Assembly: GCA_021775755.1 (NCBI GenBank)
Contig: JAJFHE010000054.1
Span: forward strand, 1 to 64,000
Length of the DNA: 64,000 nt
From: Hyphomicrobiales bacterium
GTDB lineage: Bacteria > Pseudomonadota > Alphaproteobacteria > Rhizobiales > JAJFHB01
Reading direction: 5' to 3'
Every line of letters begins with the position of its first letter. Within the stretch, counting starts at the first letter, position 1. Made by a program: the position numbers and the translations under genes. Below the pieces are notes generated by a model. The model was not told where the DNA came from, did no database searches, and saw only the letters and a program-made list of their open reading frames with translations. Shown here in pieces: positions 38,325-41,286 of the stretch.

Positions 38325-40277
38325 CTATTCCGCCGCCTGCAAGTCCACGCCCATCGCCCGCGCCGCATCTGGCGCCACAGCTTCCGCAACCAGCGATGCA
38401 ATCGCCTCATCGAGGCTCATGGACCTTTGATCCTTGGAGCCCAGCCGCCGCACATTGACACTGCGCTCATCGACCTCGCGTTTGCCGGCAACGAGGATGA
38501 CCGGCACTTTCGTCAGCGAGTGCTCACGCACCTTGTAGTTGATCTTCTCGTTGCGCAGATCGGCTTCCGCGCGCAACCCCGCCGCATTGCAGGCCTCCAT
38601 CACTTCAAGCGCGTAATCATCGGCATCGGAGACAATCGTTGCGACAACGATCTGCAGGGGTGCAAGCCATAGCGGGAAATGCCCCGCGTGGTGCTCCACA
38701 AGAATGCCGGCGAACCGCTCCAGCGAACCGAACATCGCCCGGTGCAGCATCACCGGCACATGTTTATCGCCATCGGCTGCGATATAGAATGCGCCGAGCC
38801 GCTCCGGCAGATTGAGGTCTACCTGCAGCGTACCGCACTGCCATTCACGGCCGATCGCATCACGCAGGGTGTATTCAAGCTTCGGCCCGTAAAAGGCGCC
38901 TTCGCCCGGATTGAACACACAGTCCTGACCTGCGGATTCCACCGCATGCTGAAGCGCTGCTTCCGCCTTGTCCCAGACGTCATCTGCGCCGACGCGTATT
39001 TCAGGCCGGTCGGCGAACTTGACGATCACATCCTCAAAGCCGAAGTCCGAGTAGATGCTCATCATGAGCTCATGAACCTTGACGCACTCTTCGTTGATCT
39101 GCTCGGTGGTGCAGAAAATATGCGCATCGTCCTGCGTGAACGAACGTACCCGTAACATTCCGTGCAGCGCACCCGAGGGCTCATAGCGGTGCACCTTGCC
39201 GAACTCGGCGTATTTCACCGGCAGGTCGCGATAACTCTTGAGACCGTGCTTGAAGATCTGCACATGCCCCGGGCAATTCATCGGCTTCAGTGCAAAGGTC
39301 CGCTCATCGGGTGTGTCGGACGTGAACATGTTCTCGCCGAACTTCTCCCAGTGGCCGGAACGCTCCCACAAGGAACGGTCCATCATGTCGGGCGAGTTCA
39401 CCTCCCGGTAGCCGGCATCGTCCTGGCGCCGGCGCATATAGGAAATCAGCGTTTGGAACAGCGTCCAGCCTTTCGGGTGCCAGAACACCGAGCCCGGCGC
39501 CTCTTCCTGGAAATGAAAGAGGTTCATCTCACGGCCGAGACGGCGGTGATCGCGCTTCTCCGCTTCTTCAAGCTGTGTCAGATAGGCCTTGAGGTCGCCC
39601 TCGCCCGCCCATGCGGTGCCGTAAATGCGCTGCAGCATGGGGTTATTGGAATCGCCGCGCCAATAGGCGCCGGCAAGCTTCAATAGCTTGAAGGCGGTGC
39701 CGACCTTGCCGGTCGACGGCATATGCGGCCCGCGGCAAAGGTCGAACCAGTCGCCTTGCGCGTAGACGCGCAGATCCTCGCCCTCGGCGATGGCGTCGAC
39801 AAGCTCAACCTTGAAGTCCTCGCCCATAACGGCAAACACCTGCTTGGCCTTGTCGCGGCTCCAGATTTCTTTGGTGAAGGGTGAATTGCGCTGAATTATT
39901 TCGCGCATTTTCTTTTCGATATTCGGGAGGTCTTCAGGCGTGAAGGGCTCCTCGCGCGCAAAGTCGTAGTAGAAGCCGTTCTCGATCACCGGCCCGATGG
40001 TCACCTGCGTACCCGGAAACAGCGATTGCACGGCCTCGGCCATGACGTGCGCCGCGTCGTGACGGATCAGCTCAAGTGCCGCAGCGTCGTCGCGGGTGAC
40101 GATTTCGAGCGCGCAATCCGCAGCCAAAGGGTCGCTCAGGTCGCTCAACGCCCCGTCGACCTTCATGGCGACGGATTTCTTGGCGAGCGACTTTGAAATG
40201 GAAGCGGCAAGTTCGGCGCCGGTAATCCCGGCGTCATACTGGCGCGAGGCGCCATCTGGAAATGTGATGGTGATCAT
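38325..40277 (-). CDS. thrS: Threonyl-tRNA synthetase
   Basis: A 650-residue class II synthetase that charges tRNA-Thr. It has the N-terminal TGS domain ([20 protein letters not shown]), the editing domain with [16 protein letters not shown], the catalytic core with the zinc-ligand motif [12 protein letters not shown], motif 2 around [21 protein letters not shown], and the anticodon-binding C-terminal domain. Length agrees with bacterial ThrRS. The ATG at 40277 is preceded on the complement by CAGGAGATCC. No T-box is visible. Confidence 0.96.
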
Positions 40278-40456
40278 CGTGGATCTCCTGCTCACTCTCT
40301 GCATACCACGCAGGTAAGTCTTGAGACGTTGGTTGGATGTCGATAGTGGCGCGGTTTTAGCGATTCGTTCCAGAGGGCGCAATGGGGCAAAACGGCTGGA
40401 CTTTCAGACTGGGGACGTAGAACAGCCGTGGGTCTTTTGCGCGACACCAAGGGCAG
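40278..40456. other. thrS upstream interval
   Basis: No gene seen. It should contain the thrS promoter. The leftover gene-free stretch up to 40848 is mostly filled by the palindromic element at 40457. Confidence 0.4.
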
Positions 40457-40724
40457 CTAGAGCCCATGTGATGAATTCGAAGCCACTTTGACCGGGTTGT
40501 CTTGTTGCGTGGTCAGGCGCGCTTCGCAATGCGATGGGGGACATCTCATAAGAAGCGCAACGCCGCCACGCGGCAAGACAACCCGGCCTTTGGTGGACCA
40601 AATCAGTCCGCCGGCAGCGTTGCGCCGCTTGCCCGATGCTCCGCATCGCGCTGCGCGCCGCGCCTTACCGGTCGAACTGATTTGGTCCATCAAAGTGACT
40701 CCGAATTCATCACATGGGCTCTAG
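40457..40724. repeat. 268-bp palindromic element folding as a three-way junction
   Basis: The ends are 35-bp inverted repeats starting with CTAGAGCCCATGTGATGAAT, with only two mismatches. Inside are two further inverted repeats: 40492-40509 with 40569-40586 (18 pairs, two of them G-T) and 40594-40607 with 40676-40689 (14 perfect pairs). The outer arm ends at 40491 where the second begins at 40492, and the third ends at 40689 where the outer return arm begins at 40690, so the whole folds as an outer stem with two hairpins. A truncated further copy of the left end follows at 40721-40745, sharing the CTAG. No open frame is plausible. It is either a MITE/REP-like repeat or a structured transcript. 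Confidence 0.8.
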
Positions 40725-40848
40725 GGCCCATGTGATGAATTCGAAAGGCACGTAGCGCGAAATTCCTGCGAGCAATCTTGTTCATGCACGGCCCATGCGC
40801 CACAATTCTCCGCCAACACCGTTGACCCGGCCCCGGAGGCAACAACGC

Positions 40849-41286
40849 ATGAAATTCGGCCACGTCAGCATGGTTGCACGCGATACCGATCGCCTTGCCG
40901 ATTTTTACAAAGCGGTCTTCGGCTGTCAGGACACTGTTGAACGATGGAGCATGTCCGGCGACCTGCTGTCTCAGGGCAATGGCGTCCCCAACTCCGAGAT
41001 TTATGCGGCATGGTTGAGCCTGCCCGGCACAGACGGCCCGTTCCTGGAGATCTTTCAGTACAAAAACATCCAGGAGCGCCCGACGCCATCGGTCACTGAA
41101 CCCGGCTACGGACACATATGTTTCGAAGTAGAAGACATCCGGGCCACGTTCGACGCGGTCGTCGAGGCGGGAGGATCGCCGCTCGGTAAGATAACCGATC
41201 TGGGGACTGCGGAAGCCCCTTGCCTATGTGTCTATGTACGCGATCCTGAGGGAAACGTCGTGGAACTGGAGCAGCTTACCGCATAA
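40849..41286 (+). CDS. Glyoxalase/VOC-family protein
   Basis: A 145-residue VOC-fold protein. It begins MKFGHVSMVARDTDRLADFY, with the metal-ligand His at position 5, and closes with YVRDPEGNVVELEQL, whose Glu is the final ligand. The GHICFEVEDI segment gives another His. Members include glyoxalase I, epimerases and dioxygenases; no specific activity can be chosen. CCGGAGGCAAC precedes the ATG. It is unlike the VOC protein at 33540 in length and motifs. Confidence 0.8.
   Translation: MKFGHVSMVARDTDRLADFYKAVFGCQDTVERWSMSGDLLSQGNGVPNSEIYAAWLSLPGTDGPFLEIFQYKNIQERPTPSVTEPGYGHICFEVEDIRATFDAVVEAGGSPLGKITDLGTAEAPCLCVYVRDPEGNVVELEQLTA

Follow-up and report, generated by a model that had tools for sequence, protein, structure and literature searches.

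The 268-bp palindromic element examined here is most probably a MITE moved by IS630-type transposases, a reading to which we assign a probability of about 0.88. It lies in the window, i.e., the whole stretch of 64,000 nucleotides analyzed (positions 1 to 64,000, forward strand, of contig JAJFHE010000054.1, assembly GCA_021775755.1, Hyphomicrobiales bacterium), in which it is the only arm-paired element. Related elements occur in many copies at duplicated target sites, one of them nested within another and two in tandem sharing a TA; IS630 transposons with the same kind of ends and targets are present in related genomes, and some shortened derivatives carry one arm copied from the other. The element itself (265 bp) encodes no transposase, and the largest listed ORF that mostly overlaps it, of 80 amino acids, extends past it.

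Table 1. Coordinates in the window of the element, its parts, and its neighbors
Feature	Coordinates	Strand	Remark
Whole element plus flanking target bases C...G	40457..40724	+	268 bases
Mobile unit GAGCCC...GGGCTC	40460-40721		bounded by TA duplications
Left TA, target duplication	40458..40459	.	YTAR flank statistics
Right TA	40722..40723	.	common to the element and the second, truncated copy; geometry as in G001 L189:640-641
Outer left arm (terminal inverted repeat)	40457..40491	+
Outer right arm (terminal inverted repeat)	40690..40724	-
Inner hairpin H1	40492..40586	+
Inner hairpin H2	40588..40695	+	most conserved module; model R1 match 40591-40693, 120 bits
Truncated second copy	40721..40745	+	left end only; has CATGTGATGAATTCGAA in common with the first left arm
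thrS-like gene	38325..40278	-	upstream end towards the element; start approximate
Glyoxalase-family gene	40849..41286	+	other neighbor, divergent from thrS

All arms of the palindrome described in the original prediction were found, and the fold is far more stable than that of shuffled sequences, with an RNA folding energy of -178.7 kcal/mol compared to -95.7 ± 5.4 kcal/mol (z -15.3) and a z score of -16.9 for the DNA fold. The outer arms (35 nt) are 94% complementary, the H1 arms (40492-40512 and 40566-40586; 21 nt) contain two mismatches, both T-G, and the H2 arms (40588-40610 and 40673-40695; 23 nt) pair at 91%; the conserved hairpin of the family is GCTTGCCCGATGC..GCATCGCGC. The proposed three-way junction is therefore present, but to call its pairing perfect was a slight overstatement, given the last 6 nt of the H2 arm, 40690-40695, that have two possible partners, the H2 arm or the outer left arm. 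A second left end does begin at the same CTAG, which is common to both copies, and 24 of its 25 nt are identical to the first left arm; the palindrome spanning the join, predicted as 17 bp and perfect, is in fact 2 x 21 nt with one mismatch. Because the variant set CATGTG and TTCGAA is exclusive to these two left ends and absent elsewhere in the genome, the truncated copy is a sister of the first.

Neither unique and unconserved nor represented by copies devoid of the internal stems, the element is repeated genome-wide. Searching its own genome with the 268 bases returned six full-length copies (93-100%), several copies with one hairpin lost, and about 25 places that match the second hairpin alone at about 80%. 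The last of these belong to another subfamily whose outer arms differ (CTAGACCGTTTCACGTTCATATGGAA...), the tip of which occurs 61 times in this genome versus 0 for a reversed-pattern control. Altogether, at least 40 sites of its own genome belong to the family, with dozens more in relatives of the same family and order, and the terminal inverted repeats recur in many copies dispersed over these genomes. When TA-ended paired arms were sought around matches in the own genome and relatives, 89 distinct arm-paired elements were obtained, the complete ones being 258-268 bp; intact copies overall measure 258-270 bp and follow a common plan of an outer stem and two inner hairpins at a three-way junction. 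The outer arms are nearly wholly different among subfamilies, and within each copy both arms pair. One plasmid each of Agrobacterium and Thalassospira and one IMG/VR contig also carry this plan with other arms. When a covariance model of H2 was run against 289 sampled genomes of Alphaproteobacteria, 27 of them, representing about two dozen families, gave matches; the elements there measure 264-270 bp and have TAGAGC or TACCAA ends. Several of the sampled genomes have two adjacent matches to this model on opposite strands, which suggests that H1 is a diverged mirror copy of H2; by whole-sequence comparison, H1 resembles the reverse complement of H2 barely better than shuffles do (0.58 versus 0.54). 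In G039 and G001, genomes of relatives, many contigs stop inside elements or tens of bases away (e.g., L243, L245-L248, and L192); palindromes seem to break assemblies, and since contigs end at elements, the copy counts are lower bounds.

Among the 65 TAG-type elements with both flanks available, C...G stands outside the TA in 46, and a YTAR target fits in about 61; because the bases outside vary while the inner G is constant, the duplication in this type is TA, as in an IS630-type MITE. The TACC-ended subfamily departs from this pattern with 3-bp direct repeats of the form TNA, namely, TAA/TAA three times and TGA/TGA in the own genome and relatives, TGA/TGA in a viral contig, and TCA/TCA in Agrobacterium. 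On contig C42 of the own genome (L030:1214-1473), a TACC copy is nested within H1 of a TAGACC copy, and the pre-insertion site is visible in dozens of uninterrupted paralogues, with only the TAA region duplicated; the nesting and the uninterrupted paralogues together constitute a natural empty site. In a relative (L189), two whole elements have one TA in common, with the same geometry as the window element and its truncated neighbor. The family as a whole shows both target duplications (TA in YTAR, and TNA) and, in the nested copy, an empty site. For the window copy itself, no orthologous base-level empty site was found at relatives' thrS regions; the element is absent there, but the gene order differs from that of the window.

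IS630-family transposons (NF033545; DDE_3) of the same order have ends TAGAGC...GGAATCG. Two of them have ends (TAGAGCGTTTCACGTTTTGACGGAAACG) that are identical to element ends of the family at 25 of 30 positions in equal register, a match that applies to the TAGATCG/TAGAGCG subfamilies, and their flanks are YTAR-type, C-TA...TA-G, as in the elements. We built a weight matrix from 26 IS630 ends and scored it also without the first 6 bases; in this shortened form, element ends scored 7.0 compared to -17.2 (sd 7.6) for shuffles. The window's own subfamily gave a smaller difference, -5.0 versus -18.7 (sd 7.8), and no transposon closely matching its ends (GAGCCC...) was found, the best IS630 end matching at 21 of 30 positions. 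A second IS630 group has ends TACCA(A/T)(C/G)GG...TGAC (TACCAACGG...TGAC). The usual target duplication for the IS630 family is TA; two TACC-ended IS630 copies (L272 and L273) show the 3-bp duplications TAA/TAA and TGA/TGA, in agreement with the TACC elements, and a third (L258) shows TTA/TAA. In the own genome, the right ends of two TACC-type IS630 copies (contigs C44 and C29; TACCATCGGCGATCACCTTTGACC) are followed by TAA and TTA. IS630 transposase genes of this genome are contig-start fragments only (L160, L161, and L162 on contigs C22, C44, and C29), and these copies were rejected as immediate ancestors of the window's subfamily, being fragments at contig ends with termini that are TACC-type or unrelated. 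Because end sequence, register, and target duplications match, we infer that IS630 enzymes move the element in trans.

Other DDE families could in principle leave similar traces: IS5 groups (such as IS427/IS1031) also use TA in YTAR and TNA targets, IS481 or IS5-type enzymes can use CTAG/TA-like sites, and CTAG-like flanks likewise border an IS481-like transposon of this genome (L160). That such an enzyme moves the MITE is very improbable, as six DDE_Tnp_1 genes (PF01609, IS5-type) from this genome, which made up the entire non-IS630 comparison, are without matching ends, whereas for both kinds of terminus the IS630 transposons agree with the elements in the sequence of the ends, in their register, and in the target duplication.

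The window copy sits between the divergent thrS and glyoxalase genes, and 33 of 37 copies placed in a rough gene survey are intergenic, in all orientations. In about eight copies (L022, L134, L140, L144, L152, L002, L025, and L027), the TAG stop of the neighboring gene coincides exactly with the element terminus, which insertion at CTAG allows; such a coincidence would be expected if stop-codon CTAG were a favored and harmless target.

Another candidate mover is the RAYT encoded in the window (Y1 transposase, 1968-2975), which the original prediction had proposed for a REP-type repeat; the gene is real (Y1_Tnp match), and the element is palindromic with xTAG ends. That it is a REP/BIME-type repeat so mobilized is, however, extremely unlikely: over the whole window, the RAYT gene has no element end close to it, and the element has two symmetric, IS630-type ends and TA or TNA duplications, whereas Y1 enzymes are not known to make target duplications. 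Its length of ~265 bp also places it outside the definition of REPs, which are hairpins of 20-40 bp tagged with GTAG or CGTC at one end (PMC3733652). At 1800-2990 of the window, the 5' part of the RAYT-like ORF (1968-2975) is partially duplicated in tandem within the ORF itself, with repeated ggggacacaatacctaatt blocks upstream.

A fold this stable might instead belong to a structural RNA gene or a cis-acting RNA (e.g., a thrS leader or a terminator-like structure) selected on the transcript, also an option offered originally. Across distant subfamilies, H2 covaries strongly, at 17 of 25 pairs, with 84 double-change cells compared to 18.8 in shuffles. Mispairs and covariation were counted per cluster, as a single global alignment of all subfamilies misaligned H1. 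In a 40-member cluster, G-T and A-C mispairs per column numbered 19/19 in H1, 16/20 in H2, and 8/13 in the outer arms, and because the two types are equally common, there is no sign of selection on one RNA strand; the two T-G mismatches of the first inner stem are real but lose their value as an RNA clue for the same reason. In cell counts, H1 and H2 lean in opposite directions, which fits two mirror-placed hairpins and not one transcript. Raw per-copy mispair counts, apparently strand-biased, were rejected as RNA evidence because the column counts are even and the two hairpins lean opposite ways. A scan of Rfam 15 returned no family above the gathering cut-off, with weak microRNA matches far below cut-offs being rejected. 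With ends fixed at duplicated target sites and copies facing every direction between genes, selection on a transcript is a very improbable origin of the fold.

What, then, keeps the arms paired in a MITE? Within the window's subfamily, the outer arms show 12 double-change types versus 16 single, H1 shows 5 versus 27, and H2 shows 1 versus 24. Many of the outer-arm double changes are transversion pairs, which cannot arise via a G-T intermediate step. The compensatory differences that the original prediction proposed to look for exist in the outer arms and, across distant subfamilies, in H2, but lack a single-RNA-strand signal. In the shortened copies L024, L186, and L008, one arm, extending into the hairpin stem, is a reverse-complement copy of the other, and one hairpin is gone; the perfect fold-back spans 51 bases in L024 and 48 bases in L186. 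Copying between the arms, which these shortened copies show directly, partly accounts for their continued pairing, and template switching within a folded strand would be its simplest explanation, rather than selection alone. The covariation of H2 indicates long-term maintenance of its shape as well, whether by selection, arm copying, or both.

For the element as an IS630-type MITE, the following course of events may be envisaged from its sequence. A Tc1/mariner-like transposase of the IS630 family (DDE_3), produced elsewhere in the cell, would recognize the terminal inverted repeats, excise or copy the element, and insert it at YTAR, mostly CTAG, with duplication of TA. The two inverted hairpins of the body would let a single strand fold into a Y, and while single-stranded or extruded as a cruciform, the element could undergo arm-to-arm template switching, which would keep its arms identical while both drift along with the transposase and would occasionally delete one hairpin. 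At this locus, a first copy presumably inserted upstream of thrS; a sister copy would then have inserted at, or been duplicated into, the right-end CTAG, with loss of all but 25 bp. More tentatively, the two-hairpin core may be more than passive filler: it may act as a conserved module to which a host or transposase factor binds, or which is required in folded single-stranded form, and it would have persisted across Alphaproteobacteria with its ends repeatedly re-matched to IS630 groups with different duplications (TA and TNA), making it a transposase-switching satellite; we regard this extension as possible but doubtful.

As a kind, the IS630-type MITE is already known. The apparent novelty lies in a three-armed architecture that keeps a constant length across the class, with a core common to the ends of two IS630 groups that differ in target duplication. 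No earlier account of such a family was returned by full-text literature searches, which left out the 1995 RIME paper, and a prior description is possible. MITE families are usually shallow, and it is unclear which transposon gave rise to them; in this family, a single architecture can be traced class-wide together with probable transposase partners, which allows one to ask how a nonautonomous element keeps up with changing transposases. Arm-to-arm copying makes inverted repeats covary without RNA, a caution for covariation-based RNA discovery, and the family accounts for some assembly breaks and for a strong intergenic hairpin beside many genes.

Among known systems, RIME (Rhizobium intergenic mosaic elements; Osteras 1995, cited in PMC2873474) and Bru-RS are likewise palindromic repeats that lie between genes and occur in the same bacterial class. 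RIME are ~100-130 bp long. This length and that of Bru-RS, 103-105 bp (PMC2267715), are unlike the ~265 bp of the element. A search of 72,556 plasmids yielded one Agrobacterium and one Thalassospira match only, with no match on a rhizobial Sym plasmid, so that plasmid-borne RIMEs of rhizobia apparently do not resemble the element in sequence. REPs and REPINs with their RAYTs are also palindromic, extragenic, and nonautonomous but differ in size, ends, target duplication, and transposase class (PMC3733652, PMC3116915). Correia/NEMIS, ERIC, and other TA-ended bacterial MITEs have in common with the element their TA ends, long paired fold, and dispersed intergenic locations; they differ in being 100-200 bp with a single main stem, in other taxa, and with different ends (PMC2229807). 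RUP of Streptococcus pneumoniae, for which IS630-Spn1 is the proposed mover, is similarly noncoding, intergenic, and multicopy, with TA duplication and inverted-repeat ends matching an IS630-family transposon (PMC2229807); RUP is ~107 bp with a 9-bp terminal inverted repeat, whereas the element has ~265 bp, ~30-bp arms, two inner hairpins, a class-wide distribution, and two types of target duplication.
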